From Agarophyton chilense (Eukaryota; Rhodophyta; Florideophyceae; Gracilariales; Gracilariaceae), in the NCBI GenBank assembly GCA_030374765.1, contig JARGXX010000068.1:4030001-4094000 (forward strand): a stretch of 64,000 bases of DNA, in the 5' to 3' direction. Of the stretch, positions 10,143 to 62,400 are shown one piece after another (position 1 is the first letter of the stretch; every line of letters begins with the position of its first letter). Under the pieces are notes generated by a model that made no database searches, was not told the DNA's origin, and was given only the letters and a program-made list of their open reading frames with translations. The position numbers were made by a program, and so were the translations under genes.

Positions 10143-10158
10143 ATTTCCACTGGGTAAA
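10143..10158 (-). repeat. Element A right terminal inverted repeat and target duplication
   Basis: ATTTCCACTGGG is the reverse complement of the left end and is followed by TAAA at 10155-10158, matching the left duplication. Confidence 0.85.
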
Positions 10159-12600: not shown

Positions 12601-12604
12601 GTTT

Positions 12605-41143: not shown

Positions 41144-42002
41144 ATGAGCAACCTTCCGTCTCACGTGGTCAATCAACCCACGTCCTATGATGATCTCGAC
41201 AACCCTCGGTTTCAGCAGACTTCTGCGCCGCCTAGAGGTTCCACTCCACTCTCCCGAACTGTCCCTTTGCCGCAATCGGCTTCCAGTCCTGGTCCTGCAT
41301 ACCTTTCCTCCAGAGCAGCTGTTCTGCAACCTGCGTCCTCCTCAGTTCAGAGGTTCCCACATTACGCGGACTTCGTCGGCCAAGACCCCCTGCAGCACTC
41401 TGCATTATACGGGCGAGCACCTTGGGTTTTCCCTGCGGCGGTCCGCGACGAAGCTCTGATGATCATTATGTGGTCGCCGGTCGCCTTCCCGATAGTATCC
41501 CATGGCATGCGTTGTTTACAACAGATTCGTTGAGCCATTGAACCGTCCCAAACAATGCGATCAGTCGCTTGGGAAACTAGAGCTTGCTCGAGGCGCGCGA
41601 ACGGTTCACCCGTCTGGTGTACCAGCGATTACGCCGCATCATCGGCTGGGTGCCTCTCAATGAGGATTAGCAATTCGATACCTGGTGTGCCAGAACAAAT
41701 GGAGAGGTTTACTCGTATGTCGAGAACCTAGCGGCTTTGGATGTCCAAAGGTGGCGCGGTGTTCGTGGAGTATCCAACGGGGTCCTCTGTTACGATAATA
41801 CTCAATTACGCGCGGAATTCCGCTATCTCCGTAAACGGGATAATCCGTATTGGGAATTCCCCCGGTGGGAACGCCGTACCAGATCTTGACTGGAATACTT
41901 GGTTCCATACAAGATGCTCAAAGTGGACAGAATTCGGTATAACTCGCGTGTCAGGCGCTACGTCTGTGTTCTCGGAATGCTCGATAAGTGTGCTAGATAG
42001 CT
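41144..42002 (+). pseudogene. Unidentified decayed gene left of the giant element
   Basis: A frame from ATG 41144 gives a Pro/Ser-rich N-terminus (SSPGPAYLSSRAA) and ends at TGA 41531. After a frameshift a second coding-like frame runs from about 41581 to 42000 with TAG near 41668 and TGA near 41887, rich in Arg/Tyr/Trp (for example EFRYLRKRDNPYWEFPRWE). Together they look like one broken gene of about 280 residues. I do not recognise the family; a retroelement Gag is possible. Confidence 0.35.
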
Positions 42003-42215
42003 AGTTTTGCAAATAAAAAGCCAAAAAATCAAAGATTTTTGCAGATTGCGCTAGTTCGGCACCTGAACAAAAAGATTTTTGGAAATAAGAACTCCATGCA
42101 TCTTAGTGTTTTGACCACTTAATGCAGTTTAATCTGCATTTGCAGTTTACTGGTCACTTTTGACCGCTCTAGGTGGAGATCCATACCAAGGCAGTCGTCA
42201 GTGCCTTCTACCTCA

Positions 42216-42716
42216 TTACTGGCCCTTTTGCTTACTAGGCTCCAGCGTTCCACCGGGAGGATATTTGAGGTTGAAGAAGTCCACCACCGCATTCTCAACC
42301 TCGTCCACCTCCCCACTGCTCAAGTTCCTCACACCCGGCTGCCCCACCACACACACATTCCCACCCTTCTTCTCCACATCCTTACCAACCCTCCTCTTCT
42401 TCAGCCGACTCTCTCCGACTCCTACCCCTTTCCATTCCTCTCTCCCCTTCTTCATCCCAGCCGGCTCCCCGCGTCTCCCTGGCGTCACCGGCGACCCTTT
42501 CGCTCTCCCCCTCTCCTCTCCTACCTCCTTCAACACCTTCCGCGCACCCCAAATCTCCCCCACCCCTTCCATGTGCACTTCCAACACCTTCACACGCCTC
42601 TTCAGTTCCTCATTCTCCCTCCACAGCTTCCCCATCTCCGGCCCCATGGGGATCCGCTCGATATCGCCAACGCCCGCGAAAGCTATCGACAAGAGCCACC
42701 GCAAGCGCAAGCGCAC
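42216..42716 (-). CDS. Small basic coiled-coil protein
   Basis: A 166-residue minus-strand frame, uninterrupted, Gly/Lys/Arg-rich. Residues about 28-65 form a heptad-like segment (LWRENEELKRRVKVLEVHM) typical of a leucine-zipper coiled coil. The C-terminus (EVDEVENAVVDFFNLKYPP) is acidic and then aromatic. The opposite strand also stays open here because of the strong strand bias; I prefer this frame because of the coiled coil. The start at 42716 is uncertain. Function unknown; a DNA-binding or structural partner of the element's other proteins is conceivable. Confidence 0.4.
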   Translation of the reverse strand: MRLRLRWLLSIAFAGVGDIERIPMGPEMGKLWRENEELKRRVKVLEVHMEGVGEIWGARKVLKEVGEERGRAKGSPVTPGRRGEPAGMKKGREEWKGVGVGESRLKKRRVGKDVEKKGGNVCVVGQPGVRNLSSGEVDEVENAVVDFFNLKYPPGGTLEPSKQKGQ

Positions 42717-43259
42717 TCACCTTAGTGCGGCCAGTAGTACCCGCAGCCTCCCACACAGCACCCCCCCTCGAAAATCCTCTCGCCCACCTCCGGCCTTTTA
42801 TCTCCTTTTTTTTGACCCGCTTTTCGCGCGCGCTCGCCCAATTTCAGTACCCTCGTACACCCCTGCATCTACGCTCCGGATGCCCTTCACCCCACTCATT
42901 GCTCACTCACACACTACCATCCATATTCCTACACCTTCTATCATGTTCAGCGCTCCCTCACTACTCTCAATTTCATAGCCTTCTCATTTATAATAAATCA
43001 CACTCATTCGTAACACAAACCGCCGATTACTCATAAGCCCTCTTTCCCGTTATGACTTCCATAACAACACACAATCCTACACTTTTAACACGATAAACCC
43101 CATTCAATATCATAAATCTAACCTCCTTCCCAAAAACCCCTAACACCCATTCCTCCACAACCATACTCCTTCTCTATTTAATCACATCTCCACATTCGCC
43201 ACCCCCACCACTTCTTCAATTCCAAGCACACCGCACTCCAAACACCTTTCGCAATCAAC
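42717..43259. other. Leader region between divergent genes
   Basis: Pyrimidine-rich plus strand without a convincing gene. It must contain the promoters of the leftward coiled-coil gene and the rightward gene at 43260. Confidence 0.4.
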
Positions 43260-44084
43260 ATGACTGACTCTCTCACTGCCATCCCTTGCACCTCCGACCC
43301 AGCCGTTATTGTCGGCAGAGGCCGAATCGGCACTTTGCTTCGCAACAACGGCACCCCACAAGATGCTTTTCTCTCAACTCAAGAATTCATTTCCGCGCAA
43401 TACATCCCCGACGGCCCCATTTTCTTCTGCGGCAGAAATCATTCACTCGAAGACGTCATTCAATTCTGCCCTTCCTCCCGCAGAGAGGATCTGGTCTTCC
43501 TTCAGAACGGAAACATTCTCCCTCTTCTTTCAACCTATGGGCTCCAAAACTGCACCAAAGCCGTTCTCTTCCTCGCCGTCCCCTCCCTTAACACACCCCC
43601 CGAGGACGGTGTCACCCTCCTCAGTTCCCATGGTCTCACAACTGCCACCTGCAAATAGGCTTCCGCACTCGCCAATCGCCTCAGTACCGCAGGCCTCACT
43701 TGTCATGTCGTCGACCAGCCCTCCTTCTTTAAAGCTTACTACGAAAAACTCGTATGGATATCAGCTTTTAATCTCGTCGGCTCCTCTTATGGCTTTATCA
43801 CAATGCACGAAGTTGCAGTACAACACCGCACAGTCGTTTGAACCATAATGAAAGAGCTCCTCGCCATCGTCACATCCGAAACAGGAATCGCCTACAATAC
43901 AACAGAAACACTCCAAAAACTTCTGGCCCACGGAAAAACACTTACACAGTTCCCCACCTCGTTCTCAGACTTTGAGTTCCGGAACGTCTACTTCTACAAC
44001 GTTTCTAACGCCCAAAAATCCATTGGAAACCGTGACCCCGCCCCTTTCCATACGAACTTCTTGAACGTCCTCCTCAATGGGTAG
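43260..44084 (+). pseudogene. Ketopantoate-reductase-like (ApbA/PanE) Rossmann protein, two in-frame stops
   Basis: One frame of 275 codons from ATG 43260 (context AACATGAC) to TAG 44082, cut by TAG 43656-43658 and TGA 43839-43841 with no frameshift. The N-terminus has a dinucleotide-binding turn, AVIVGRGRIGTLL. After the first stop, FFKAYYEKLVWISAFNLVGS resembles the Lys...Asn helix of the ketopantoate reductase C-terminal domain. In the family these enzymes use NADPH to reduce ketopantoate; many distant members have unknown substrates. Such a metabolic oxidoreductase is unexpected as transposon cargo. Assignment is moderate. Confidence 0.5.
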
Positions 44085-44499
44085 TACTTCATTCATATAC
44101 CCCTTCCAATAAAAACAAGTCCTCCTTTCTAAAGCATATGTCCATCTCCTTCGCTGCCTCTATAAAGACTGCTATCCGCACGACACCACGTCAGAATATA
44201 TGAAACGATATTAAGATTTGCTTCGCACATCACAAATCATCACTACAACCACTCTTCATAAATCTTCCAGCTTTGCAATTAACTCTGTACCCAATAACCG
44301 CTCCTACAGCCTATCAAAGGTTTTCATTCATAACAATTATTCATACTCCGCAACAGAGATGCGGCAACAACCTAACAACTACTTTGATCACTACATATAT
44401 ATATCCACCGATGACCACCCTACTTCATTGCGCTCAACATACTGTATCCAGTCCCTCACAAATACCTTTCTACACAACACTCTCCTCTCCTTCTCAAGC

Positions 44500-44844
44500 A
44501 TGCAGCGCTACGAAGCACGTCTTTCCCTACCACCTGGTTCTTCTGTCCAATTCTCAGCAGCTGTGGATATTCTTCCACAACGAACGGTTATCACCATCGA
44601 CGAAGTCCTTCAAATCAAACTTCCAACCACCCAGAATGTGGTCGAAGTCAGAGGGTTCCAGAATCATATCACCAACGAGCTCATGGACGAGATTCGTGAC
44701 ATTTGTACGACCACCAGGAGGCTCCCCACTCGCAACTCCCTACAGCAGCAAGATACTCTGAAACAACTGTTCAAAGAGCGGTATCATATCGTTACCTATG
44801 TGCAGCGTACAAGGAAGACTAGCAAACCGGAACGCCTTTACTAA
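44500..44844 (+). CDS. Hypothetical protein, 114 residues
   Basis: I start at ATG 44500 since upstream codons of the longer frame (from 44218) look non-coding and a TATA-like run (ATATATATAT) lies near 44395. The protein has an alternating strand pattern at the start (RTVITIDEVLQIKLPTTQNV) and a charged helical end. No known domain. It lies between the ketopantoate-reductase-like gene and the membrane protein, all on the plus strand. Confidence 0.4.
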   Translation: MQRYEARLSLPPGSSVQFSAAVDILPQRTVITIDEVLQIKLPTTQNVVEVRGFQNHITNELMDEIRDICTTTRRLPTRNSLQQQDTLKQLFKERYHIVTYVQRTRKTSKPERLY

Positions 44845-44989
44845 GATGTTCAGTTAGCAAACACTCCTCACATCGACCTTAACGTTCACAATCACACTAA
44901 CTACACTCTTCGGAGTTAGAGACCCAGCTCTGCAATATACACTTCCATTCAGATTCAACTCTCTCCTTCGGTTCATTCTCATAACGCTA

Positions 44990-45685
44990 TTGAGATGTTC
45001 TATCCAAAGCCTGCTACACATTCTCATAATCAAAGGAGGCGTACAATGTATAAACGCGTTATACGGGTCTCTACAAACTACGCCGTTCAATCCAAACCAG
45101 CGATATACCTGGAAGAAACGAGCCTTTCTAGAATTCGGGGCTCTACTCCTTACTCTACTCACCCCCCTCAACGCCATACTTTTCCTCGTTCACCGCTTCA
45201 TTCCAGTCAGCGGTACCCTTTCATCAGACTTGAAGACAAATTGTATCGCCTTCTCCACAGGAGGGGCCGCAGTTGGCGCTTTGGCATATCTTCTCCAGCT
45301 TGTTTCTATATCCTTCTTTCCAGAGTCCTATCTTAACACAAAGTTCACAATGACCCCGGAACCACGGAGAACCTCTTTTATGAACCTCGTGCTTGGCGCC
45401 CTCTCCCACTCTTTTCAACAGGCTTTATTCATATCCAGTCCGGATGTAACCTTCCGACTACTCGGTATGAGGCTATCGGCATGCACTTTCGCTGCACTCT
45501 CTGCAACCGCCCTCTCCACCTCTCGCATTGAGGGACCTGGTGTTCCTATACTGATTGGTAACACAGTGGATGTCGTAATCCTGATATCTTCGACAGTTGT
45601 CATTCACTATAAAAAAGAGAAAGCAAGTGCTATTCTCACGCGTTTCAATCCAGTTGTTCAGGAGTTTCTACTGAAAGACGACTGA
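44990..45685 (+). CDS. Hypothetical membrane protein
   Basis: 231 residues, uninterrupted. Hydrophobic segments occur at about residues 48-68 (FGALLLTLLTPLNAILFLV), 88-108 (STGGAAVGALAYLLQLVSI) and 185-205 (PILIGNTVDVVILISSTVVI), with weaker ones between. The C-terminus is charged (KKEKASAILTRF). I do not recognise the family. The stop lies about 80 bp from the end of the convergent gene at 45767. Confidence 0.45.
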   Translation: MRCSIQSLLHILIIKGGVQCINALYGSLQTTPFNPNQRYTWKKRAFLEFGALLLTLLTPLNAILFLVHRFIPVSGTLSSDLKTNCIAFSTGGAAVGALAYLLQLVSISFFPESYLNTKFTMTPEPRRTSFMNLVLGALSHSFQQALFISSPDVTFRLLGMRLSACTFAALSATALSTSRIEGPGVPILIGNTVDVVILISSTVVIHYKKEKASAILTRFNPVVQEFLLKDD

Positions 45686-45766
45686 TCACTATTACAAGAA
45701 AAGGGGACTACTCCACATATTACCTCAAATTGTAGTCTTTATTGTTCAATAGGTAACAGATACTAT

Positions 45767-48700
45767 CTAGTCGTCGTCGTCATCCATTATCATACCGCCG
45801 TCTTCATAGTCTCCATCTGTGTTAGCCGAGTTGAGATCCATCCCAGGTTCATCATCCTCTTCTTCATACTCCTCTTCCCCACTTTCAACAACTTCCATTT
45901 TATAATCTTCATCCAACTCCTCATCTTCATCTACCTGGACGTCTTCATCATCACCCTTGTTGGAATCATCCTCTTCGAACTTAGGCCGAAATGCTGGTTG
46001 CCTATGCACTGCGTCCGGTAGCTTGTACCCATCCGGTACCAAGTACATGTGATACCTCATGCAAACTTCCTTAACCAATGCATCCTCGTATCCAGCTCCA
46101 GCATGAAACACATCTCCTCTTCCAATAAAAATGGAGTACGGCGGAATCCTGAACTTCCTCACTACCATCGTTCGAGACAGCCGCTTCAAGCTCCTGTCGT
46201 TGGGCACGTACATGTTATGTGACCTCTCACAAACCCAAAGCATAAACGAACTCGCTCCCGACGCCATCATGAAGAACCCTGGAACCTCTCCGACGTTCTT
46301 CTCGGCATCGGTCAGTCCTCAAAAGTCCGTATGTAACACCTGCCTTGGACAGCCCTCCGCCGTACACAGCACTCGCCCCCCTGTTTCAGGGGCATACATC
46401 CTCTTCTTCCCCGACCTGTTGTTGTACAACCGAAGAGTGGCCGCAATCGGTCCAAACCTCGCATCCAACAATGCCCTTTTCCTCACCATTAAAACGTTGT
46501 TCTCGTCCCCCTCCACAGAATCCACAATCCCCACCTTCGTCGTAATGTACCGCCCAACTCCCTTCATTCTATCTCCAGCGTCTCTCTCCTCACCAGCGTT
46601 GATTATAGGGTCCCATTTCTTTCTATTCCCTTCAATCGTCAAGTCCGGCTGGTTCAAGAAATCCGTCTGGAAGAACTCTAGCAAAGTTACAGTCACATCC
46701 CCATCGAAGTTTACCCTCCTCTTCTTCGCCTCATCCGCCATCCCCTCGTCCGTGGCAAACTCTTCCAGCACACAAAATCCTTTCTCCATCAGCTCACTTC
46801 TCTTAGTCGCGAAGTACTCGCAGGCCAAGTCATCCCTCTCCATTGCTGCCATCCATATCGCCTGCTCTTCATTCACACGGTGGTCCTTCGTCGGTAGAAT
46901 CACCCCAAGAACCGGTTCTTTCGTGGAACCCAGTTCCTTGTGCCTGTTATGAGCAGCACGCCAATAAACCGCATGGTGCACACTTTTCAAGTCTTCTACC
47001 CTCAAGCACTCCGCCCTGTGCTTGTTCCGTAGGTAAATCATCTGCATCCAGAGGTGCTGATGCTTCACTCCATTTTCACCCGCCGGCCACTTGCTCGGAA
47101 GTGCATTCACCAAGTACACCCACGACATACCCGACCCCCCCGCATACGGTCCCGCCCTCTTCAGCCCCTTTGGAACACCCTCCGGATTATTGTCTTCAAA
47201 GCCACGCATTTGCACACCTTCCTCCTCTTCGTCCCCTACAAATGCACCCTGCCCCCCGTCATCATCCAGTTCATCCTCACTCGATGAGAAAACATTGAGT
47301 ACATGTTCCTTCAAAAAGCGCTTCAGCTCTTTCCTGCTCATCTTCTTGAACACATCCACCACGTCAGCCGGTATTTGAGCCGCAGATGTGCCCACCGTCT
47401 TTCTCCTCTTCCTCTTCCGCTTTAAAGGCTGTTCATACTCGCGTTCATCATCACTAATGACCACAGCCTTTCTCTTCCCCTTTCTCTGTCTAGGTTCCAT
47501 CACCCTCTCACCCGCAGCATCCAGCCCGCGCTCAGTACCTTTTCTAGTTCGTGTGATGCGTCTGGGAACCACGGTTTCCTGGTGGGGTACAGACTCCCCA
47601 GCACTAGACGAAGGAACATTCACAGAAGGTGGAACCTCCACCACATCCTTCTCCGCACTTGGGGACGCCAGACTCACTTTCAGACCGCCTTCAATCCGCC
47701 TTTGTGCGATTTTCATCCTCTTCGACACCAACCCCGGCCACAACCTCTTCGGACCACTGAGCTCCATCTTCGCCGTTTGCATGCAAAGGTACTCCCTTAA
47801 AGACACCTCGTTCTTTCCCATCACAATTGTGCTGTCTAGAACCTTCCCCGCCGTCAGACCCTTCTCCTTTCCCGCCCTTTCGCATAGTTGGAACATTCCT
47901 ATGGCGCATTGGAAGAACTGCTTTCGCGTCTCCTGGAAACGTCCCATATTCCCCGTAGAACCCATCCTCACCCTCACATGTAGCTGCAAACAACGGATTG
48001 CTAAACGGAATATTTCGTCTTCGAGTCCTAACAACAAGTCACTCGACACATGCGCAAGCGTTAGCACTGGACCCTCCTTGCATACGTTCTCAAAGAACTC
48101 CAGGAGACCTTCGCTCCTGACGAATTTCAACCCAAGAGTCGCATAGCGATTCAAGTGGCGCAAGCTGTAGATTTCTATAGCTTTGCTCGTCTTCAGCGCC
48201 CCAGCTATCCGTGTCGGAGTAAGGTCAGCCAACTTGGTTCTCTTATCGTCAATCAAGTTGCAAATGAAGGACACTGTTGAATGAACCTTGTCGGCGAAAC
48301 TCATCTTCAACACATTTGAACTCATTTCATTGAGTACATTACCAAGACCGAGCACTTCGTTCAGCGATAAAGGCTTCCGGTCCTTTCGTCTCCAAAGAAC
48401 GACATCAAGAGACCGCACAATTTCCAACCACTTTCTCCCTTCAGAGGGATCATTCTTCATATCTCGCAGAACCAAGACGCGGTGATGACCGTCAATGAGT
48501 ATGACAGGCACCACTACCCTCCCATTGTGAACAATTTCACTGAAATCTAATTCCATTCCCCCGACGATGGCAACAGCAATCGACCCTGCCGACGCAAGCC
48601 AGCCAAACGTTTTGCACTTTGCCATCGTCGCCGCCTTGTGTTCCGCATTCACACTTCTGACAGTCTTCTCGGGGATTTGTATGTCATCTATGTCCACAAT

Positions 48701-49453
48701 CAAGCGGCACTGGTCATAGTCTGAAGCAGAGATCTTCTTTTCCACGAGAGTCCTATCCACTTCCTGCGAAGGAACGGCATCGCCGTCATCGAACAACTCC
48801 AACTCGGGACCGGTGTGCGAATCCCCGCGTACATTCACCGCTGACCCCACCTCCACAACATCTTCATCAGAATCATCCACTATCGTCACCCTCTTTTTCG
48901 GCTTGACGGGTTGCTTCATGGCCGGCGGCACTGTTGTTGGCTGTGCCCTCTTCCCCCTCAAAGGCGTAGCAGACTCCTTCGAGGGGGTCGCGCTTTTGGG
49001 AGTCTCCGGCCGAGGAGGCCCTGGAGTCAGCACAGAGGAGGCGCGTGTCATCATCGAGGTATCCCATGCGTATATGCCTGCCGACACCATATCCTTCAGC
49101 AACTCCGGCGGCTCCTCTGCTCCCTTGAAGGAGTACGGATACTTGGAGTTGATCCCCTCCTTAATTTCAGTCCTCCAGATGGCCACCAAGTCCTCTCCCG
49201 GCTTCGCAGACTCGCGCAACGAATGGCCATGCATCGCTCTGCAAAGCGCCTTCCCGGCCGCTCCACTGCCCCCAACACCTCTCAACTCCGCAGTGCCAAC
49301 CATAGTACCCTTCTTCTTCCCTGTCCCATCCGCCAGGAACAACGCCACCCTATCCCCACGGGCCAGATTGTTTCCCGATGTAGCTTTTCGCGGAGTGGCG
49401 CGTGGAGTACCCCGCGGAGTACCCCTCGCTTTCGCTTTGCCTCGAGTCATCAT
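45767..49453 (-). pseudogene. ParB-like and 2-oxoglutarate/Fe(II) dioxygenase protein, one in-frame TGA
   Basis: A single frame of about 1228 codons, broken only by TGA at 46319-46321. It starts with a Lys/Arg/Pro-rich N-terminus (residues 1-25, AT-hook-like repeats of GTPRGTPRATPRK) and has acidic and basic linkers. Residues about 245-350 contain VVPVILIDGHHRVLVL (314-329), the core motif of ParB/sulfiredoxin-like domains. A long helical region follows. The last 190 residues form a double-stranded beta-helix dioxygenase: HTD (1041-1043) as the HxD iron ligands, GFFMMASG, SFMLWVCERSH, then IPPYSIFIGRGDVFHAGAGY with the distal His (about 1117) and CMRYHMYL with the Arg that would bind 2-oxoglutarate (about 1133). 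The tail is Asp/Glu-rich. The TGA falls two codons after HTD. TET/JBP-like dioxygenases oxidise modified bases in DNA, and a DNA target is my inference from the neighbouring DNA methyltransferase. It is divergent from the gene at 50402. Confidence 0.65.
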
Positions 49454-49598
49454 TTGAATCGGATCGTAGTCGGTCGAGGTTGCAAATGGTCGCAGAGCCT
49501 TTTGAGCCTTTTATGGTATACAGACTAAGACGTATTAGATCGAGCTCCTTTGGTGGCGACTATCCGGAACACTCCCGAGAGCAGTTCGTTGCAATCAG

Positions 49599-49676
49599 CC
49601 TGAACTACGTCCGCTTAGTTTCAACCTGAGCTACGTCCGCTTAGTTTCAACCTGAGCTACGTCCGCTTAGTTTCAA
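49599..49676 (+). repeat. Three tandem copies of a 26-bp repeat
   Basis: CCTGAGCTACGTCCGCTTAG plus TTTCAA, copies at 49599, 49625 and 49651, the first with one mismatch. They lie in the divergent promoter region next to the hairpin array and could be protein-binding iterons. Confidence 0.85.
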
Positions 49677-49769
49677 ACTCAAGAAACTCCTTGTCTCTTT
49701 CCATCACAAACACGCCTATTGGCTTGGTAGGCGATACAAGAAAATAAAATTAAAAAATTAAAAATATCC

Positions 49770-50232
49770 TGACGGCCGACAGAGGTGCGCTCCGACTTCA
49801 TCGGGGGTCCCGATGAAGTCCCCGCGCACCTCTGTCGGCCGACATAATACATATAATTTTGTAATTTTTGGAACGCTCAGGTGTACACGGTGCACTCTGT
49901 CGGCCGACAGAGGTGCGCTCCAACTTCATCGGGGGTCCCGATGAAGTCCCCGCGCACCTCTGTCGGCCGACATAATACATATAATTTTGTAATTTTTGGA
50001 ACGCTCAGGTGTACACGGTGCACTCTGTCGGCCGAGAGAGGTGCGCTCCAACTTCATCGGGGGTCCCGATGAAGTCCCTGCGCACCTCTGTCAGCCGACA
50101 TAATACATATAATTTTGTAATTTTTGGAACGCTCAGGTGTACACGGTGCACTCTGTCGGCCGACAGAGGTGCGCAGGGACTTCATCGGGACCCCCGATGA
50201 AGTCGGAGCGCACCTCTGACGGCCGACAGAAT
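49770..50232. repeat. Array of four large hairpins, 128-bp period
   Basis: Near-perfect inverted repeats of about 75 bp lie at 49770-49845, 49898-49973, 50026-50101 and 50154-50232. Each is built on GTCGGCCGACAGAGGTGCGC, a stem through ACTTCATCGGG, a 3-nt centre and the reverse arm. The spacers are identical (AATACATATAATTTTGTAAT...GTGTACACGGTGCACTC). The inner core of the fourth unit is inverted relative to the first, so the array as a whole is itself roughly palindromic. It separates divergent genes (start codons at 49453 and 50402). Possible roles are replication origin, transposase or partition (ParB-type) binding site, or bidirectional promoter. Confidence 0.9.
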
Positions 50233-50401
50233 GCAACCAGGATAGCTCCGAAGTCGTTCCGCAACAACCGTTCTTCCGTGCGCGCTCCTCAACCGTACTC
50301 ACAATCTTTCCGTACCCACCCGCACCCACCCGCACTCGCTGCTCTCTTTCACTCAGGCTCTCGTGACGACCGCCCGTGAGGTTGTTTGAACATGTACATA
50401 A

Positions 50402-53400
50402 ATGGCTCCAGAACCCACGAGAACTTCTTCATCGCCTGCGGCAGACACCTTCGAAATGGGTAAACTGTTTGGTACGGGGGATGAAGTTATCAGGGCGTGT
50501 CTGGATTTGTGTGATCGTTACGAATTAACGAGGCGGGAGGAAGATGAGCCGCGAAAAGTGGGGCACACTGCATTCATCGATTTCACAATTGCCAATCGCC
50601 ACATCCTACCGGAGACCGCGAAGTTTTTTTATACTCTCCTAGGTCCCGACCACACCAATTACACAGAAGATGAGCTCCGAGTTGTAGGAATGAGGGGCTC
50701 GAACTGTCAGAATTATTTCTCGGCGAGGTTGCTGGATATAAGGGATGGGGACCCAGATAGGCGCGTGAGGGACTTTTGGAACGCGTACGAAGCGGTGGAG
50801 TTCAAGGGCATCCCGAAGTATGTCACTTTGACAGAGTTCTTCAAAGGTCTGGATACAACCCGAAAGAAGGCGAGCAAAAGCCGGGCTCCATTCGCGACCG
50901 ACTTCCCGACAATGTTCCAGAGGTTTCTGTTCCTCATTTGTATTCAGTCGGTCTCTACGGAGAAGAAAAGAGTCTCCCGTAAGCGAAGAAAGCGGGACAG
51001 AACCTGCATTACGCCATTTTCGAAGGTGGCGATTTATGACAAACCAGTAGCTCAGCGTGTGGGCTTTGGTGTGCAGCTCGTCAATAACGCTTGGGACAGC
51101 TTCGCCCAGTATTTGGGATTCCCTGGCGTGGAATTCATGGTTTTGCCCTTTATCCATCTACGATATTCTGATATGCAGTTCCAGGCAATCGGAAACAGAA
51201 GGGATGGGTTCTCTCACAAGGACATGGCCCAACGACTCCTTCCTGGTAGAAACCGTACTTTATTGGAGGAGGATGTCGTCCCATGGGCGTGGAACCTGCC
51301 GGAGTACGTTCACACTCCACTTCGTATGTTGGCCAAAGAGTTTCTCGCTGACCTGCACAAAGTGGTAGTGAATGAGCAGCTTTACTCTATATCAGCTCCG
51401 GAAAGATGGGACGCTCTAAAACCGTTTACATACACTTTGCCTAGAGTATTTGCGGAGAGATTCGACTGCTTCTCGAACTCTCTTATCTCTACCATCTCGG
51501 AATACATATCGCCACTAAAGCTGCGAGGGAGTGTGGAGGTGGAAGTGGTGGCTGCGACAAAGGCGGAACCTACTATGGTTATGGAAGAAGACGAGATAGA
51601 AGTTGTACCCCCTGAGAAAGATTCGGAGGCTCCAGCGGTGGAGAGTGGAGAGGAAGTGGAGGGTGGGACCGGGAATGAGGAAGAGAACATGGGTGTTGGT
51701 CAGCATTCTTCCACAGCTGGACCAAGGTCGGTCGAATCTGAGTCGGTGGATATTCTGCCGCCCCACGACCTTACCTCTCTGGATGATATAATGTCTCTCC
51801 AAAAGTGCGAGTAGGAGATGGATAAGCACTGTCGAATGTACAATTGTACTTTCGAGAACCTGGTGGAGATTGACGAGACATTACGCAGAAATGGGGTCTC
51901 TCCGATAGGGAAAGTGCAGTTGGTTCTCACGGACCCGCCGTATAATATACGTGCGAAGAAGAACAGGAAAAACAGCTGGTACGACGATCTTAACCGGCAA
52001 GACATGGTGAAGACGGCGAAGCTCATCTCTCAACTTCTGCGTCCGGGAGGGCATTTCGTTATATTCTGCGCGATTGAGCAGGTGAACGAATGGAAAGAAG
52101 TGTTGGGTCGAATCGGTGCAAAGGATGAGAATGGACAGAAGAGCAGGTCGTTTGTCGTGGAAAAGGTCCAGCTGCACTTCATTCGCTCTCAAGGCAATCC
52201 GATGCGTAATCCCGGACGTAGTTCGTGCTCCCTGTTTCCCGGAACAGAGTACGCCATTCATGGAGTTCGCAGCGGGTTGTCCTACGCCGAACAACATGGC
52301 ATGGTGAACTATGAGAACTTCAGCTATGTACCATCGCGATATCCGGGTTACCATAGCGTGATTGACCAAGTGCCTCCCATGTCGAATGGTGAAACACTTC
52401 TATGGAGAAGGAAGAATGCCAAAGGAGCAGTTACGTATCAGAAAGTGCGGGCGGAACAGAAGTCACGCGCTTTGCTGAAGGAGCTCATCAGCAGGTTTTC
52501 TCAGCCGGGAGACAAAGTGGTGGACCTCTTCGCCGGAACATTTTCAACGGCCATGGCATGAATGGAACTGGAAAAGCACCGTCAGTTTCTAGGGTGTGAG
52601 CCAGATCCGCAGTGCTTTGCTCATGCGAAGCACGCCGCTACACTGAAATTTGCGTCATGCATGCGGAACAACGAGACGGACATTCATATAACGCAAGATG
52701 TTCGGAACGCTGTGACTCGAGTGACATGCTTGTTTCCGGACGTCGTCATAAAGCGTTCGAAGTCCTGGAAAACACCTACCGGATTTCCCGAGCATCAGAT
52801 GTTTCCACCCCATATCGTGGATTTTCTCTCCTCCATGTGGCAGCATAAAAATATACCGGAGATTGGGCGACGGCAGGCGCTGTATGAGTGGCCAAGAAGT
52901 TTTCAAGGAAAGATGTCACTCTTGGATTGGAATGCTATTCTGGCAGTTGAGGCGACAGTATGTGGTTGTCGGATTGCAAAGTCGACGATAAGGCACCCGA
53001 ATGCTGGAGTTGGTGTGTACACAACACGCCGGGTGGTACAAGGTGAGACTGTTTGTTACTTTTACGGGACTTTGGTGTACCATAATCTTTCAAAGCAGAA
53101 GGAAGTTCATAAGGCATACGGAGGGGGGCTATTGAAAGCGACTGCTGATCGTTTTCGGCAGTACGCGATCGAGATAAGCGTCCGAGGGGAAGTGTTTCAC
53201 AAGCTACCAGGAAGAATTAGTGGGGTATCTCTTATTCCGGTGTGGATTGTCCCTGCTCCATTTTGCTCGGGGGGAACAATTAACGACCCCAAGTATGTGG
53301 AAGGGGATAGGGACAGGGATGCGGTTGAAGACGGGTTAATGAGACGCCGAACTGCAAAAGTTCGGGTCATCAGAACTCCCGGGACGGGGCGGACCCCATT

Positions 53401-53533
53401 TCAGTTGAGAGACTATAGATTGCTTTCTGTGCAAGCAATTCGAGATATAGAAATAGGAGAGGAGCTGTTCGCGGATTATGGGACACAGTATATCTGGAGT
53501 ATGAATAACACGCCAGTCATAGTAATCGATTAA
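50402..53533 (+). pseudogene. Large protein: unknown N-terminus, beta-class DNA amino-methyltransferase, SET domain; two in-frame stops
   Basis: One continuous frame of 1044 codons from ATG 50402, with TAG 51812-51814 and TGA 52559-52561 as the only breaks. Codons 1-470 have no known domain; they end in an acidic tail. From 51818 comes a DNA N6-adenine or N4-cytosine methyltransferase: catalytic TDPPYNI (motif IV) first and VVDLFAGTFSTAMA (motif I, SAM binding) later, the order of the beta class, then GCEPDP (motif II) just after the TGA. From about 52980 a SET domain follows: GVGVYTTRRVVQGETVCYFY, an INDPKY segment in place of the usual NHS motif, and the terminal IGEELFADYG. SET domains methylate lysines. 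I read the three ORFs as one gene because phase is kept and the TGA splits the methyltransferase fold itself; three separate proteins is the alternative. Confidence 0.7.
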
Positions 53534-53857: not shown

Positions 53858-56491
53858 ATGGCTCCGAAGCGCAAATCGAGAAGCGAGAACACTAGCGGGC
53901 GCGGTACAAAATCACGGCGGCATGGAGGGGATGCGGAGGGCGGAAGGGACAAGGGGCGTAGGCTCCAGGGCGCGAGTGGAGAGAAGGGAGGCGTGCGCCT
54001 GAGAGGTAGATCAAGGCAAGATGGTGGGGAAGGAGAGGCGAGTGGGGGCAAAGAAAAGGCTGTTCGTGCAAAGGAGACGGTGACGGAGGAGAGTGCGGAG
54101 CAAATCACGTCGCCTACGGGAGAAATGGTGCGGAGCGGCGATGGAAAACGGGATGGCGTGGGAAGCAACCGCACGCGTGTACCTAGAGGTGGATTGCGGG
54201 GGAGGGCGAGCAGAGCTCCAGGGAGGACAAGGAGAGGGGATGCATCCGAGCGGACTCTAAGTGCTGTACTCACGTCTTCAGCTGATGTGGAGCCGGTAAA
54301 TCCATGCTCTGCACCTGAAAGAGGTGAAGAGATTCCGAATGAGAGGACGAAGGGGCGTAAGGAGGGAGAGAGAATGATCGTAGAACGTGGATCCCGCCTC
54401 AGAGGCGTTGAAGAAGCAGGGGCATCGTTTACGGGTATGAGGGAAGAGGACGGTGATGATGAGATACAGAAACGGAGAATAGAGAGTAGCTGTGGTGGGG
54501 AGGGTAGAATAGGTGGATCCAGTAGTGGTCTAATCGCGGGCGCAAGAGTCGTTCGAGAGAGAACAGAAGGAGAGAGTGTTGGAGTTACCGCGGGGGAACA
54601 GGCGGAAAGATGAGAGAGGGCGAACTTGGATTACGTGGAAGAAAGGAGAGAGCGTGCAAGGGAAAGAATGGGGAGTGTTCGAGTTACAGGAAGAAGAGCG
54701 ATAGACGAAAGGGAAAGCAGAGAAGTGCATGTGAGTGAGGGGGGGAGAAGGGGGTTGGCTGGAGGGAGAACACGTGGTTCAGGGGAGGAAGGCGATGGAA
54801 GAGCAGCAGTTCTTTCTCATCAGGGAGAAGATGTAGAGCGTTTGCCACCGAGAAGAGGGGTGGGTTTGGGAGTTGAAGGGTTTGAGGTGAACGCAAGGCG
54901 AAGGACGCCGGAAGGTATGCGAGTAAGGAGAAACATTGTATTCACAAGGAATAATGATAACGCGGAGAATGCGAATTTAAATGTCGTGGAGAACGCCGTC
55001 CGTATAGTGGAAGATGAAGCAAATGATGATAACATAGGTTTGTTGCCGCGGTCGATGCTAATTGAGAAGATGAATGTGTTGAAGGGACAAATGGGACGTA
55101 TGAAGGAAGGCAGCTACAGTGTGATGGTGAGTTTGAAAATGACCCAAACGGAGCTGGATCGGGCGAGGGAGGAAATGAAGCAGCAGAATGTGCTGATTGA
55201 GAGTTTGAGGGAGGCGTTGAAAAGTAGAATCGCTGGGGAAGGGAGGGGGGAGGGAGGCATGACGCGGCGACGAAAGTATGACATTGGAGTGCAGGAATGC
55301 TTTTATGGATTTGCACGTCGTGTGTATGATAGGATTCTTCATTGTGCAAAACTGAAGGCATCGGAACTTTGCTTCGACACCGAGAATGTGGATCGAAGCT
55401 GGAAGAATAGAAGTGAGGCGGTTGGGGAGAGTAGGGAGGAAATTATGTTTGTGGTGGGAGAGAAGGAAATGGTTCCGAGATGTCCAATTGAGGTTGCATA
55501 GGAGATGAGACCGTATACGCCGTCGACAGAGGGCGGGAGCCATTTGTTGTTGAAGCACGTGGTAGAGACTGAGTTAACGGGAGAGAAATGGGAGTCGATA
55601 AGGGAAGCGGGGAGGAGAGAGGAGTGCGTGGAAAATGTAAGTGCGGATAGGTGCTTGAGACAGAGGATGAAGCAGACATTAAGCGATGTGGTTGGGGTGC
55701 GGAAGCGAGCAGCGCGTGATAAGCTGTTTTCCATGCTTGGATATGATTTGATCGCGAAAAGAGCTAAGGTGACTGAAGGGACGGAGCTTTAGGCGGAGTT
55801 GAAGAAGCAGATTGAGGAGGAGCAGGAGAAGTTGATGGGGTCGGGGGAGGATGGGAGAGGTAAGCTGTGTGCGTGGAGAACGAGTGCGATTGAAGATATT
55901 ACTTATTCTGGATCGAAGGTGTCTGAGAACTTGGAGGACTTTGGTGAGGCAGATATGTATTTTCGAAGTCAGGTGTCGTTGAAAGTGTTGGAGGAGTTTA
56001 TGGGCTACGCGGTAGAGAGTCACAGAAATGGAGAAAGGCAGTATGTGGATGGGACGGTGATGCATCTTGCGCGACTTGATGCATGGATTGGATGTGTGGA
56101 GACCACGATGGATAGAGACGTTGGGCGGGGAGGCCAAAGGCAACTTTTGTTCTCGACGCTGTTTGGGAGGTTTCTGCCACTGGCTGTTGAGGACATATTG
56201 AGGGTTGCCTGAAACATGGTGAAGGATGAGTATGCTGAGGAGTTTGAGAATGATGGATTCTGTGGAGGGAATCGTAGAGATGTGAGTGGGAATAAGGAGA
56301 GAATCGCGACGGTTGGGCTATGGATACCGTCGAGAGAGAAAATCTATCTGGCGATAAGGGAGCAGTTTTTCATGGAGAATCTCACGAGAAGACTTGGAGC
56401 GGTGTTAGATTGCTATATAGCGTCATGTGGACCAGAAGAACCACGGTTCAAGCGCTTAGCGTTGGGGAGTAGGCAAGGAGTGGGAGAGTGA
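53858..56491 (+). pseudogene. Large Arg/Glu/Gly-rich coiled-coil protein, four in-frame stops
   Basis: ATG 53858 has a good context (ACTATGGCT). One frame of 878 codons is broken by TGA 54611-54613, TAG 55499-55501, TAG 55790-55792 and TGA 56210-56212, without any frameshift. The first about 350 residues are disordered and very rich in Arg, Glu and Gly, with basic clusters (RGLRGRASRAPGRTRR type). Residues about 405-460 are a likely coiled coil (IEKMNVLKGQMGRMKEG, EEMKQQNVLIESLREALK). The C-terminal third is mixed helical with conserved-looking motifs (GVQECFYGFARRVYDRIL). No family recognised. It is large, basic and in tandem with the methyltransferase gene, so nucleic-acid binding is plausible but unproven. 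Confidence 0.5.
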
Positions 56492-56578
56492 TAAGGTACG
56501 GGGGGATAAGGGGGTAAGGAGGTGGAGCAAGATGGGGGTCGGCTATGGAAGAAAAGCAGCGGTGACTATTTTATTAGA

Positions 56579-59294
56579 TCATGTGCCTTGGGAGGTATTA
56601 TTATGGGTGCCACCCAGTGGTGGTGTTGTGCCACCAGTGGTGGTGTTGGAGAAATAGGGCTTGGCAGTTGGGTCTCGGTGGAATCTTTTGAGGTAAAATC
56701 GATGGGAGCGCCAGTGCAATCGAGGGGTGAAGGGGGGTGCGGGGTAGTTTTGGCGAAGCACATGAACGGGGCCGAGAATGGAAGAGGATGGTACGAGGCC
56801 GAACCAGGTGGAGACGTTGTCGGAGTTGGAAGTGTTTGAGATAGGAAGGGGGTAGGCGGTGTGGTTTTGTGCGTCGTCTGTTGCCCATCGGAGGCAGATG
56901 CAATTGAGAGAGACATCGACTTGATCCTGGGGTGGAACGAGTTCGAGGAACTGAACGAAGGCGAACTCGTTATGAATGGAAGGGGAAGGAGGGGTGGTGA
57001 AGCGAAGAAGAGAGTTGAGCTTGCAGACCCAGGCGGTGGGAGTGGGGTTGGAGAAGCTGGAACCGGCAACGAGGATGTGGGAGAACTTTGGGGTTTTAGA
57101 GGGACCGAAAGACGGAGCAGCGAAGATACGTTGAATGAGTGGGAGAGGGGGATCTTTGACGGCGAGCTCGTTTCGATCGGCGATGTAGTCGTCTAGGGTT
57201 GGGGTGAAGCCGCCGACGACGTATGCGGAATTGACGAATGTGACACGGGTTTGGCGGAGAGTGGGGGACTCCTGGTTGAGAGCTAGTGTTTCGAGTGTGA
57301 GTGTGACGAAGGAGGGGAGTTCGAGGGTTCCAATCTGTCAGATGATGGCGATAGTGTCTGGGGAGAAGAGGTCCTGAAGGGAAGAGATTGTTGAGTGGGG
57401 GTTGGCTCGAAGGAATTTCTGAGAGGTGATGAGATCGGAAAAGGAGGTGTGCTTGCCATCACGGACGAAACCTGGTTTGCGGGATTGGAAGGGAGGAGGA
57501 GGGGCATGGGAGGATGAGGTGACGGAAGGATCAGCGGAGAGAGAAATCCAATTGTTGACGGCATCGGAGCGTTCGATGGCACGGATGGTTTGGTTGTGCA
57601 CGGTGGGTCTGCGCTTGGAGGTTCGAGAGTAATGTGCTTTGAAGAGGGTATGGGCTTGTTCGAAGATGCCTGCCTCGTTGAAGTGGAGACCCCCAAAGCG
57701 TCGAATGTCGTCTACGATGTGATCGAGGAGGTGGAATTTGAGGGTGCCAAGGTTGGAGGTATGGTATGGACCGAGAACATCGACAGCTCTGTGCTTGAAG
57801 GAATGGATTTGGGAGGCGAGTTTGGCAAGACGAGAAGTGGTCCACCCAGGGACGGAGTTGTAGCACATGGAGGTGAGGAGGAGGTCTGTGTACTTGGAGA
57901 AGACAATTGTGATGGGAGCGGAATTGGCTTCGTCACAGCAGCGGTCGAAAAAGGCGCCGATGAAGGGGAAGACCCATGTCGAGGGCGCGGTAGTCTTTTG
58001 CTTCTAGCATGCCACGGACGCCGTCAGTTGTGAAGAACCCGTTGAGGGACTGCCCGCTTTCGGAAGTAGAGAAGTCGATGTGGAGGCCAGTAGCTGGGGA
58101 ATGATTTTCGGTGGCGGTGAGGATGAAGTTGTAGTGCTTGAGGATGGAAGTGCGGACGGAGTGGAAGGAACGGCGGGAGTTTGTAAAGCTGATGGTGGTG
58201 AAGAGGTGTTCTGATCTGAGACGTTCGATGGCAGCGAGCTTGATGAGTTTGGAAACGCCGAGGTGGAAGTTGTGGAGGGGTTCGAAGGGGAAGATGTTGT
58301 ATGGGGTGAGGAGGGGGGTGATGTTGAAAAAGGGGTAAGACTCGAAGAGGGAGGGGTATTTTGCGAGGGAGAGGGAGTGGAGTGCTTGGAGAGCTTGTTC
58401 CTTGAAGTTGCGCGAGACTCTTGGCTTGCGGGCGAGGAGAGCTGCTTCGGAGTCCTTGAGGGGGGAGAAGTGTTTGTTGCGGGCTGCAAGGATGAGGGGA
58501 AGAGATCGAGGGGGATGGGCGTGAGAGTGTTGGTGGAGTTGTGAGCGATGGACCGAGCATCTGTGGCAGGGGTGCTGGGGGCGGGTGCCGTGGGAGATGG
58601 CGAGAATATCCTTTGCCTCGGGAATGTCTGCGCAGTAGCTGGCGATGATGGGGTGGCATTGACGAAGAACGCCGTCTGCGTCGCGGAAGGGGAAACCGGG
58701 GAGGGCGGAAGAGAAGAGAGGTTGAAGGAGGGAGGAGATGGTCTACTGTATGAGTTCCATTTTTGTTTGGCGGGGGATGGAGGAGGAATGAGTGATGATA
58801 TCTGCATCTGGAGAAGGAGTGATTGGGGTGAAGGGGGTGGGAAGATAGCCGAAGAGTGTGAGATTGTCGGAGATGCATTTGCGGCGAAAGGAGTCGGAGA
58901 AGTTGAGAAGGGTGATGTGGAGGGGGTAGGAGGTGATGGGAGAAGATTTGAGAGAGGTAGAGGACTTGTCGGAGAAGATTTGGACGAGGCCGATGAAGGA
59001 GTCGATACCGGTGGAGTGAGGGAGATGCCAGACGATGTTATCTTTTGTGGACTGCATGATGGCGGTCTTTAGTGCGGGGACGACTTTTGAGCCGAGGGTG
59101 GCTGCCATGGGGTGTGCGACGGCGGGGGAGCCGGAGGCAGATGTTTGGGAGATGGGGTGGAAAAAGGTGTTCTTGAAGTGTGCGAGGGCGAGCTGTTGTT
59201 TGAGGACATGGATTGCGTCTTTCTGGAAGAGGGTTGCGGAGAAGCGTTTGTGGGGATCAAAGATGGTGGAGGGGGCGAAACCAATGGACCTAAA
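56579..59294 (-). pseudogene. Tnp2/Plavaka-like transposase of the giant element
   Basis: The minus-strand frame opens at 59294-59312, possibly through a splice acceptor (TTTCTGTCGCCGCAG), and the first Met is 59108. The catalytic core starts with SFIGLVQIFSDKSST and FGYLPTPF. After TAG 58743-58745 it continues with ADGVLRQCHPIIASYCADIP and PCHRCSVHRS (zinc-like Cys/His), then FPFEPLHNFHLGVSKL. A one-base insertion in a C run near 57966 shifts the frame. The following part has GPYHTSNLGTLKFHLLDHIV and the FGGLHFNEAGIFEQAH helix found in these transposases. After TGA 57338-57340 about 250 more residues follow to TGA 56579. The enzyme would mobilise the element by a DDE mechanism; this copy is dead. 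The 5' exon is not identified. Confidence 0.75.
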
Positions 59295-59312
59295 CTGCGG
59301 CGACAGAAAGAT

Positions 59313-59490
59313 TCACGCTAGTTTTACCTCCATCAAAACTAGAAAAACTGCAGATATGTGCTAGTTTTCCTTTCCATACAAACTAGCACTAATGAACGAA
59401 TGAAAATATTTTCGGAAATTAACACCTCCAAATTTGGATAAATTCACGGGTTTTTCGGTCATTTCAATTCGTCCTTTTTTGACCACTGAA
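59313..59490. repeat. Subterminal CTAGTTTT repeats
   Basis: CTAGTTTT or its reverse occurs at 59319, 59331, 59360 and 59382 in both orientations; related CTAGTT motifs occur at 42001 and 42054 at the other end. This is the pattern of transposase-binding subterminal repeats. Confidence 0.5.
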
Positions 59491-62400
59491 CTAGCATTCC
59501 GAGAACACTGACGCATGATCTAGAATGCGTTCGATGATACATTCCATCTCCTCAGTTGCGGAATCCTTACTCGGGGTGACACTCCTGTCAACAGGTTCCG
59601 TAGCGTTCGCCATGGCGTTCGGAATCGTGTCATCACGTTCTGTCGTCTCATCCACATCCGGGGCTCTCAAAGCCAGTCGTCTGGTTTCCTTATATCTTTC
59701 CGGTCTGGCCGGTGCTTCCAACTTCCTTCTCGGTTTTGCCGAACCTCGCGTCGAAAACGCGACTTTAGTTGCCACTGTACGCCTTAGGCTTGCCTCGTTG
59801 GGCTTCTTCTCTCCGGGATTTAAGGTGTCCGGATGTTCTGGGTGTCGGCCCAAATGCTCGGTATCCGCCGCACATGGGTCAGCCGATAAATTCATACTGT
59901 CTCCATGTGGGGTCTCCACAACTGCGGTGTTCCTTGCGGACTTCTTCTTTTCTTGAGACCTGCTGCGCTCCTCAGGGAGAGTTACGCTCTTCAACCCGTT
60001 TTGCGGAATTGACTTTCTGATCTCATCTTCGGCCCTTTCGCATTCTACGCCCAATGGAGATTCTGTTCTGACATCAGGACTCCCTGTAGAGCCTTCAGGA
60101 CTTCTGATATGTGAGGTTTCATCCTCAATTTCTTTCGCGTCCACCGCGTGGTCTGAGGGAGAGACTGCAGTTTGCTGCGCGCTCACAGTGCGGATCGCCG
60201 TGTCTCCTCTCACTGCTACAGTGGGAGCTAGGATTATGTCATGGGCGGATGCGCCGTTTGTCGCAGAAATATTGTTCAGCGCTGTAAGTCGGATCATAGA
60301 ACTCTTTTCACCACGTGGCAGTTTTGGAATTATTTTGCCCTCCGGCGGTACGTCTGCAAGCTTCTGTACAACTAGTGGCTGTGTTGGCTCCTGCACCTCA
60401 ATATCTCCACGTGTGGACTCCTCTTGCTGTACGTCAGCTTCTCGATCTGGCCCACCAACTACTCGGTCGCGAGATATGGGCTCCACCTCAGTACCTCTCC
60501 GTATTAACACGATAGATTAGTCGAATTCCACAACTTCATGCGGTTCTGTAGCTATCGGCGCTAACTTATGACGGCGTTTCCGTTCCTTTTCCTCTCCGGT
60601 CTTCAGGCTATCTTTCCTTTCCACTCTCACGAAAACGTGTACTCCGACTCAGATATCCGGGAGTGCCCGTCGCATTGACGCGTCGTAAATACGCTTGTAG
60701 CGCGCTTGGGCCTTTCCCATCTCTTTTGCAGCCTGTGTAGTGCGTTTGCGCAACTCATTCCTTCAGCGTAGGTGAAACGGAGCCGGCTTCGGCACTGACT
60801 TTTCTTTGGTTCTGTCCGAATCTACCTTAATTGGCAATGCCGCTGGTCGGCGAGACATTATCAATTCAAAGGGTGTTAGCTTTGTCGTCGAATGCACTTG
60901 CGTATTGTACGCGTAGAAAAGCGTGTCTGTATACAGATGGCAGTCGTTCGGGTGTTCTCTGATGTAGTGCCGAATTGCGGCGAGTAGTGTACGGTTGTAC
61001 CGTTCCACCTGCCCGTTACACTACGAAGGATACGTCGTGGTGAACACGTTCTTAACTCCAATTATCCTGCATACATCTTGAAAGAAGCGTGCAACTAATT
61101 GCTTGCCATTATCTGAGAGCAGAGTACCAGGTGGTCCGTAGTAATAAACCCAATGGGGAATAAACGCTCGTGCTATCACGGAAGCAGAAATCCGTTTATG
61201 CCGAACAGTCTTAACCAGCTTAGAGAAGCGGTAAATTACTACCAAAAGGTATCTGTTTCCCGGCTTCAGGCGGATCAATTCCCCAAGTATGTCAATACTG
61301 ACATACTGTAGAAGTGCAATTGCTGGGAACAGCTTCAGTGCCTTCTTCTTTTTCCAGAGCTTCAATCTATTCCTCGCGCACGTTACGCACACCTTAGCTG
61401 TCGCATGACAATCCATTGCAAAAGTTGGCCAATAGAAGTCCCTTCTGAGGGTTAGATACAGCTCCGTACCTCCTGGAAGACCAGACACTTGCGAATAATG
61501 TGCCAAATGCAGTACTCTGCTCTTGAGAGCGTGTGGTATCACGATTTGCTCATTCGATTCAACAGTTCGAACAAAGATTCCTCGATCGTCGAGACGAAAA
61601 GGCAACACCTCCTCTCCCGTTAAGACGAGAGCGGTTAGCCGCGCAGAAGGCATCTGTGACTTCTTCACGTAATAGCTCTTCAAGCGAGATTCGTTCGAGT
61701 TGATCTTCTGGATCAGTGTCCGTAATCTGGGCTACCAGTAATTCTATTTGATAATCCTTTTCTTCTAGTTCTTCTTGTTCTTCTTCTTTCATTCTTGAAT
61801 TTTCGGTTACCAAACATGGTATATCGTCATCGATTTCCACTTGGGTTTCTCCCGAGGTTTCGAGTGGCGATAACGCGTCGGCGTATACGTTCGAAGTTCC
61901 CTTCTTGTAGTTCATTGTGAAATCAAATTCTGAAAGGCGCAGACGCCATCGCATTAAGCGTCCCGACGGGTCGGTAATCGACATGAGCCATCTGAGGCAT
62001 GAATGATCAGTGTTGACCGTAAAGTGAGCACACTGTAGGTAAGGTCTGAGGGTCGTGAGAGCCCAAACCATAGCAAGGCATCCCTTTTCTGACACAGAGG
62101 AGTTCTTTTCTGCCTGGTGCAGTGTTCTCGACCAGTATCCAATAGGATGTCGTATGCTGTCTTCGTGCGTTTGGAAAAGGGCACACCCTATCTGATAATC
62201 GCTAGCGTCCGTATCGACGAAGTAAGAAAGATCCGTTTTCGGAAGAGATAACACAGGAGCTGTGGTCAGCCCGTGTTTTAGCTTTGCGATAACTTCCGTT
62301 TCGGCTTCCCCGAATTCCTTCAATTAAACGGGTTGTCCCTTCTTCAATAAAGCTTGAAGAGGTGCAGCGATATGCGAATAGCCCGGCACAAATCGCCTGT

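Follow-up and report, generated by a model that had tools for sequence, protein, structure and literature searches.

What would a transposon do with enzymes for modifying DNA and chromatin, and do genes of such different kinds belong to one element at all? These questions are raised by a 64,000-nucleotide (nt) stretch of the Agarophyton chilense genome (contig JARGXX010000068.1, positions 4,030,001 to 4,094,000; the whole of it is hereafter called the window), in which an original prediction, made from the letters alone, had proposed a single transposon carrying a modification toolkit. We found that window positions 41961-59513 are a single DNA transposon, with ends shared across copies in the 79.8 Mb genome (135 contigs). 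At the center of this element, which we call A, a gene for a DNA methyltransferase fused to a SET domain and a gene for a ParB-like protein with a dioxygenase-like end diverge from an array of inverted repeats. New here is that this divergent pair around an inverted-repeat array recurs in a different, OrsD-helicase-bearing element (B). The explanation that fits the whole best is a giant Plavaka transposon with a portable two-gene modification cassette that would set an element-specific chromatin state, and we give it about an even chance of being right.

Element A is bounded by terminal inverted repeats of 30 nt (left, 41961-41990, plus strand; right, 59484-59513, minus strand), which were located by repeat search and copy alignment and are complementary at 87%; the interval of the original prediction, 41963-59512, lies within 2 bases of these ends. 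It had also been proposed there to align other genomic copies over the whole interval. We fetched ten further copies from the same genome (named below after their contigs, C1 to C135), picked out of 45 rows, eight of them for a dioxygenase-like frame free of stops; the copy search scored 44 of 333 candidates, and copy numbers are thus lower bounds. All ten share the left end and, internal gaps aside, align along the element. Six copies were fetched far enough to include the right end (C99, C105a, C12, C105b, C135 and C25), and all six share it; in C10, C117, C86 and C116 the stretch ends before the right terminus. Both ends could be read in seven copies, of which six are flanked by 2-bp target duplications; in the seventh, the window copy, the 2-bp flanks do not match. 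Genome-wide, the left-end pattern occurs at 106 + 105 places at up to 3 mismatches, at least one of which reads like a right end, and the reversed control pattern at none. The element measures about 16-19 kb, and at least 44 copies of the methyltransferase (writer) gene of its family are listed in the genome, open and decayed ones together. Nothing was found in favor of several nested insertions that only resemble one element, and we hold this to be extremely improbable: the left end, the array and the order of the genes recur in all ten copies, as does the right end in the six that reach it. For the transposase, the coiled-coil gene and the central gene pair, nesting is ruled out by the common end, order and array.

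The transposase gene (56580-59291, minus strand) forms a 1137-codon frame in other copies; in the window about 700 nt of its N-terminal part are gone, a loss that the original prediction had not noted, and internal stops are present. Its product matches the Plavaka transposase profile (Pfam PF18759, E 1.4e-22), which bears out the predicted Tnp2/Plavaka-like transposase. With this domain, the terminal inverted repeats and the 2-bp duplications, the element is a Plavaka-type (CMC/EnSpm) cut-and-paste transposon. A link to KDZ transposons, also drawn in the original prediction, is ruled out: Pfam matched Plavaka alone, and the duplications are 2 bp long versus 7-8 bp for KDZ. At position 476 the protein reads CHRC, and it also has possible H pairs; these are candidates for the C(2)C and H(3-4)H signatures that such transposases have between the second D and the last E. 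The terminal bases (right TGACG, left CGTCT) are near to, not identical with, the CATCA..TGATG of PlavakaB. About 840-920 bp present at 59291 in nine of the ten other copies are absent from the window copy (C116 was not read that far).

The rightward gene of the central pair (50402-53533, plus strand) encodes an N-terminal domain of no known kind, a DPPY DNA methyltransferase and a SET domain, joined in other copies in one intronless frame of 1043 amino acids (aa). The predicted fusion was thereby confirmed, both parts matching Pfam profiles: N6_N4_Mtase at E 3.4e-18 in A and likewise matched in B, and SET barely above its cut-off in both elements (E 8.2e-5, 23.4 bits versus a cut-off of 22.4, in A; E 1.3e-5 in B). 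DPPY motif IV precedes the FxG (FAG) motif I, the order that marks beta-class DNA amino-methyltransferases, and the DPPY motif is usual for adenine. The closest PDB sequence matches of this part, the adenine methyltransferases DpnA (E 9.1e-10) and CcrMI (E 1.9e-5), resemble it in placing DPPY before FAG; they are stand-alone bacterial enzymes, whereas here the methyltransferase is fused to SET, which keeps an ELxxDY-type motif (EELFADYG in A). Among phages, 54 records match the fusion, none covering 80% of it, and the six best matches listed span the methyltransferase domain only. In the window this frame is interrupted by stops at 51812 and 52559. Collinear frames broken by TAG or TGA in the window had suggested reassigned stop codons or selenocysteine; for these two stops, both missing in the ten other copies, we rejected that in favor of decay of the window copy. 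We also considered GATC avoidance as a footprint of the methyltransferase. Of all 4-mers expected more than 8 times, GATC is the scarcest in A (32 seen, 56 expected, in copy C10); its observed-to-expected ratio is 0.57 in A, 0.68 in B and 0.80 in the flanks, which are mildly depleted too. The footprint is weak and was set aside.

The leftward gene (45767-49453, minus strand) encodes a ParB-like region followed by a C-terminal end resembling 2-oxoglutarate-Fe(II) (2OG-Fe(II)) dioxygenases. In other copies it is an intronless open frame of 1247 aa, which in the window has an in-frame stop at 46319-46321. The dioxygenase-like end shows the motif series HTDF (1060), FIGRGDVFHAG (1132) and RYHMY (1152); two older, partly decayed relatives retain HTD and YHMY, and one of them the distal H. 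A DG[HL]HR stretch, conserved between A and B, is suggestive of ParB. Both names follow from motifs and conservation, and we use them descriptively, filing the protein neither under TET/JBP nor under ParB.

Between the two genes lies the central array (49746-50235), made of 128-bp units with inverted-repeat arms of 43 to 106 nt and GTCGGCCGAC palindromes; a 26-bp tandem repeat of 3.2 copies (49595-49676) adjoins it. One of the arms folds as a DNA hairpin (z -12.4). All 11 copies, that of the window among them, have the array, each with between 4 and 20 palindromes at up to 1 mismatch, and within the window the exact palindromic 10-mer is confined to it. A 20-mer from the array occurs at 250 or more places per genome strand at up to 1 mismatch (control, 0). 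Element B likewise has an array between its divergent genes, made of 773-bp repeats with inverted arms of 57 to 64 nt and TGCCTGCAGGCA palindromes; A's palindrome does not occur in it. The same place and structure with a different sequence would be the pattern expected if the array and the DNA-binding protein of each element change together.

Is the pair then peculiar to element A? Of 121 candidates in the genome, 116 matched the methyltransferase profile PF01555. Six further places were read, of which one belongs to A (C17), four to B or B-like elements (C103, C21, C4 and C22) and one to a broken older relative (C79). Element B is known from the content of C103:1-22500, which comprises, in order, a dioxygenase-like gene (minus strand), the repeat array, a methyltransferase-SET gene of 1141 codons (plus strand) and an 1880-codon frame. 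The methyltransferase-SET frames of family B measure 1130 to 1141 aa; the dioxygenase-like gene is broken in the C103 copy and open elsewhere, with frames of 1316 aa. The 1880-codon frame matches OrsD (PF12013, E 1.4e-7), DEAD (E 9.4e-13) and Helicase_C (E 9.9e-11), and its middle resembles a tyrosine recombinase by eye. Plavaka had no match among the scanned frames of at least 250 codons in C103:1-22500. The same divergent pair is thus accompanied by different neighboring genes in A and B.

Between A and B, the methyltransferase-SET proteins share 35% of residues over 1067 columns, with 53% for the methyltransferase, 38% for SET and 26% for the N-terminal domain, and the ParB-like parts share 32%; the dioxygenase-like cores are 57% identical over 155 residues and retain HTDF, GDVFHAG and RYHMY. 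Across 1012 aligned codons of the fusion, identity at codon positions 1, 2 and 3 is 0.49, 0.61 and 0.30. Because the first two positions are conserved and the third is near saturation, we infer selection at the protein level on the fusion since A and B split. Its recurrence in a different element, with an OrsD-helicase protein, makes the pair look like a portable module under selection. Genome-wide, the dioxygenase-like core gave 119 matches from 125 candidates, which form at least three groups: B-like ones at 92-99% identity to the query, those of A at 57-62%, and older members, mostly at 33-51%.

Some further observations concern these families. In several copies of the older dioxygenase-like genes, for instance on C7, C68, C77, C16 and C135, the frame is broken by 3-4 TAG codons. 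On C10, C117, C135, C103, C116, C4, C25 and C22, genes of family B or B-like elements are no more than about 14 kb away from a contig end; other B-like copies are 44-69 kb from an end (a second one on C103, and those on C68 and C21) or deep inside C4. The contig-end placement of B could be subtelomeric or an effect of the assembly. Repeats of CCCCTAAA were seen at about C103:19069-19307.

How might such a cassette work? We suggest that the ParB-like part recognizes the element's own palindromic array and so would address the cassette to element DNA, on which the methyltransferase would write N6-adenine (or N4-cytosine) marks. The dioxygenase-like end may oxidize or remove base marks, and the SET domain may modify a histone or another protein. 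The joint outcome would be a heritable, element-specific chromatin state governing the expression of the element and the timing of its movement. What was observed directly is the boundaries, the gene order, the fusion, the array, the pair in a second element and the codon-level conservation; the biochemical steps are read out of these. That the element controls its own marking, as the original prediction had supposed, is plausible, and the second element with the same pair strengthens the idea. The host genome bears on the kind of mark. No candidate for a C5-cytosine methyltransferase (PF00145) was found in it, while the profile was positive in 10 of 14 control genomes (prokaryotes); a gene split by introns could have escaped. 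A search for MT-A70 in the host was uninformative, as no control genome was positive. If the result for PF00145 holds, reversal of 5-methylcytosine (5mC) would be an unlikely purpose of the dioxygenase, and a mark laid by the neighboring gene its natural partner. Self-addressed marking of the adenine or N4-cytosine type is therefore likelier than 5mC reversal.

Several results weigh against this explanation. The original prediction had named a ParB-like protein with a TET/JBP-style dioxygenase fold; a candidate HxD...H...R motif series of the 2OG-Fe(II) kind is kept in A and B, and no profile supports either domain name. Pfam, PHROG and PADLOC gave no significant match for the ParB-like or the dioxygenase-like part, PDB sequence searches nothing meaningful, and the hints below threshold point to unrelated families (Peptidase_C93 at 0.028-0.19, and OLF at 0.01 in element B). 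No TET/JBP model matched with the dioxygenase-like domain alone, either in Pfam at E up to 10, where Peptidase_C93 (0.028) was the only hit, or among the PHROGs. The ParB_N profile (PF02195) did not match the ParB-like protein itself and had no candidates genome-wide, with 10 of the 14 control genomes positive, and binding of this protein to the array is putative. Folding the dioxygenase-like region in silico from its sequence alone yielded no usable model (mean pLDDT 30.5). Phages gave no match for the dioxygenase-like protein, and no relatives were confirmed on viral contigs. Moreover, SET has IND in both A and B where the NH motif, part of its cofactor pocket, usually stands, and the domain may for that reason be inactive. 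As to the host, a methylome of about 8% is reported in a review for the red alga Gracilariopsis chorda (PMC8566409), which conflicts with a lack of 5mC if our host is a close relative. The miss by HMMER does not exclude kinship with TET/JBP, because the published PE types lie likewise beyond the reach of profiles: they are so distant that HHpred and predicted structures were required (PMC12730594).

The changes among the copies of A also weigh against it. Changes in the transposase are mostly private to single copies (322 private versus 19 shared), a star-like pattern that points to a recent burst. The omega of copy-private changes is 0.85-1.15 in the four long genes, the value of 0.85, for the dioxygenase-like gene, and its stop count being biased by the choice of copies; the sole low omega with some counts, 0.32, comes from the 19 shared changes of the transposase. 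Changes after insertion are thus near neutral, present copies appear not to be under host-level selection, and we abandoned such selection as unsupported.

This near neutrality agrees with a different account, that the accessory genes were acquired by chance and merely ride along. So do two genes of the left arm. A ketopantoate-reductase-like gene (43260-44084, plus strand; frame broken in the window) is absent from three of the ten copies, C105a, C25 and C135, which lack window 42533-44752 or 42649-45544, and is dispensable; the original prediction had named this enzyme, and the sole match of its product, ApbA_C at E 0.038-0.055, falls below that profile's cut-off. The gene for a possible membrane protein next to it (44858-45685, plus strand; 275 codons, labeled by eye, no Pfam match) is absent from C135 and partly from C25. 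Passenger status, however, fits the left-end genes only: the pair has been kept in two elements at 32-57% identity, with first and second codon positions conserved against a third near saturation. As an account of the cassette we consider it improbable. An anti-silencing kit, in which the dioxygenase-like protein would oxidize marks laid by the host and the SET-methyltransferase protein would lay active or masking ones, has more in its favor and is possible, though on balance we doubt it. Such a role has been proposed for transposon-borne TET/JBP in fungi (PMC12730594), and a counter-defense shared by two different elements of one host is what it would predict. Yet the usual target mark may not exist in this host, in which no C5-methyltransferase was found, and a writer of its own, such as the cassette carries, would be superfluous for anti-silencing alone.

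The base composition of element A raises one further alternative. Seven of the fetched copies have a complete left arm; their GC skew lies between -0.45 and -0.47 in the outermost third of that arm and between +0.53 and +0.54 in the outermost third of the right arm. The left arms of C105a, C25 and C135, which carry deletions, show -0.29 to -0.41. The sign flips at the array, and the magnitude grows toward both ends. The skew is not a coding effect, because fourfold sites follow the arm and not the coding direction: the transposase (minus strand, right arm) has 427 C to 13 G at such sites, the membrane gene (plus strand, left arm) a skew of -0.24, and the dioxygenase-like gene (minus strand, left arm) +0.50 on its own strand. 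The array could be a replication origin or a parS-like partition site of an element-borne replicon, the cassette controlling the copying of an excised form; skew that crosses zero at the array whatever the coding direction, with twelve 3-kb host stretches (window 1-36000) within 0.08 of zero, would fit. But skew of -0.22 to -0.26 also occurs outside the element, at 37-40 kb, the A copies stem from one recent burst and count as a single observation, B is skewed one way nearly throughout with no flip, and the profile matches include neither a polymerase nor a Rep protein. An origin-like array would explain the change of sign and not the rise toward the ends; the skew is unexplained, and we regard the replicon as quite unlikely. 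A bolder form of the cassette explanation takes in the origin as well. It sees a mobile, self-addressing epigenetic operon, whose ParB-like/dioxygenase protein would load an element-owned palindromic array (a eukaryotic analog of parS) and whose methyltransferase-SET protein would couple non-5mC and histone-type marks in a host without C5-methyltransferase; the operon would have moved between element types, each with its own array, that of the Plavaka element serving also as replication origin, of which the skew reversal centered on it, independent of the genes, would be the sign. All of this holding together strikes us as unlikely.

The preferred reading, an element that marks itself by a portable cassette, has partial precedents. 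TET/JBP genes occur in fungal transposons, including PlavakaB of Agaricales (Kojima 2025, PMC12730594), which shares with element A a Plavaka transposase, 2-bp duplications and a dioxygenase-like gene and has terminal bases close to those of A. Its host is a fungus, however, and the accessible text describes no methyltransferase or SET beside the dioxygenase and does not use the term ParB; PlavakaB's dioxygenase is of the PE type, whereas that of A is assigned by motifs. In the Sola1 element of Ectocarpus, ParB and a DNA methyltransferase lie on one protein, and similar cases are given for transposons of green and red algae (PMC12477816). These too are giant algal DNA transposons with ParB-like and amino-methyltransferase functions and proposed self-marking, but both domains sit on one protein, whereas here they belong to separate divergent genes around an array, the ParB-like part joined to the dioxygenase-like end and the methyltransferase to SET. 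SET domains are found in HarbingerS and MuDR families, with Phytophthora as host (PMC12730594), a fusion to a DNA methyltransferase not being mentioned in the part at hand. The giant Plavaka repeats of Amoebidium (PMC11244446) are long, intron-poor clusters with a Plavaka transposase, in which some genes find matches solely in distant lineages, red algae among them; the accessory genes named in the portion available are tyrosine recombinases, and no such cassette is named. EnSpm-Plavaka elements are also present in a green alga (PMC12633428). In the literature accessible to us we found no transposon on which a methyltransferase-SET fusion is accompanied by a ParB-like/dioxygenase-like partner; Petroll et al. 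(2025), on red algae, may describe part of the combination. The suggestion in the original prediction that the combination is undescribed for an algal-type element thus survives, within that literature, for the combination as such, whereas TET/JBP Plavaka elements, SET-bearing transposons and algal ParB-methyltransferase proteins had all been published.

Two more genes complete element A. A 166-aa possible coiled-coil protein, labeled by eye (42216-42716, minus strand), is open in the window and in five of the ten copies, and shortened, shifted or stopped (C105b) in the other five. A charged, possibly coiled-coil protein is encoded at 53858-56491 (plus strand), where C99 has a 915-codon frame that is broken in the window. 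Elsewhere in the family four long frames without introns are found open, for the transposase, the methyltransferase-SET protein, the ParB-like/dioxygenase-like protein and the coiled-coil-like protein; with several stops in the last of these and in the transposase, the window copy is decayed, and open copies exist elsewhere in the genome.

Outside the element, the window contains a Transposase_21 (tnp2) match at 5293-6189 (E 1.9e-7), a further CACTA-like element, and a short frame at 60763-61020 that by eye resembles a Ty3/gypsy integrase end. At 20524-22959 a single host frame without introns encodes both a triose-phosphate-type transporter and a polysaccharide pyruvyl transferase. GC content is low at 10000-13000 (0.31-0.32 in 2-kb windows, versus 0.43-0.51 beyond), and an Rfam scan of the window gave no matches. 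The algal host that had been presumed is a red alga by its 13 matches to the phycobilisome-linker profile PF00427, a profile for which Synechococcus alone was positive among the 14 control genomes. On these matches a fungal host, considered first, was rejected. Six of the matches are on the large contigs C88, C10, C68, C16, C1 and C80 and seven on C39, where six form pairs spaced by 185.7 kb, as would be seen if a plastid contig were doubled.

If the cassette works as we propose, there are eukaryotic transposons equipped with a complete, portable system for writing, and perhaps removing, DNA marks of their own, which is coupled to a histone-type enzyme and does not depend on cytosine methylation by the host. 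Such elements would offer a natural test case for the debated function of adenine (or N4-cytosine) DNA methylation in eukaryotes, in which the open and decayed copies that lie side by side in this genome would serve as built-in controls.

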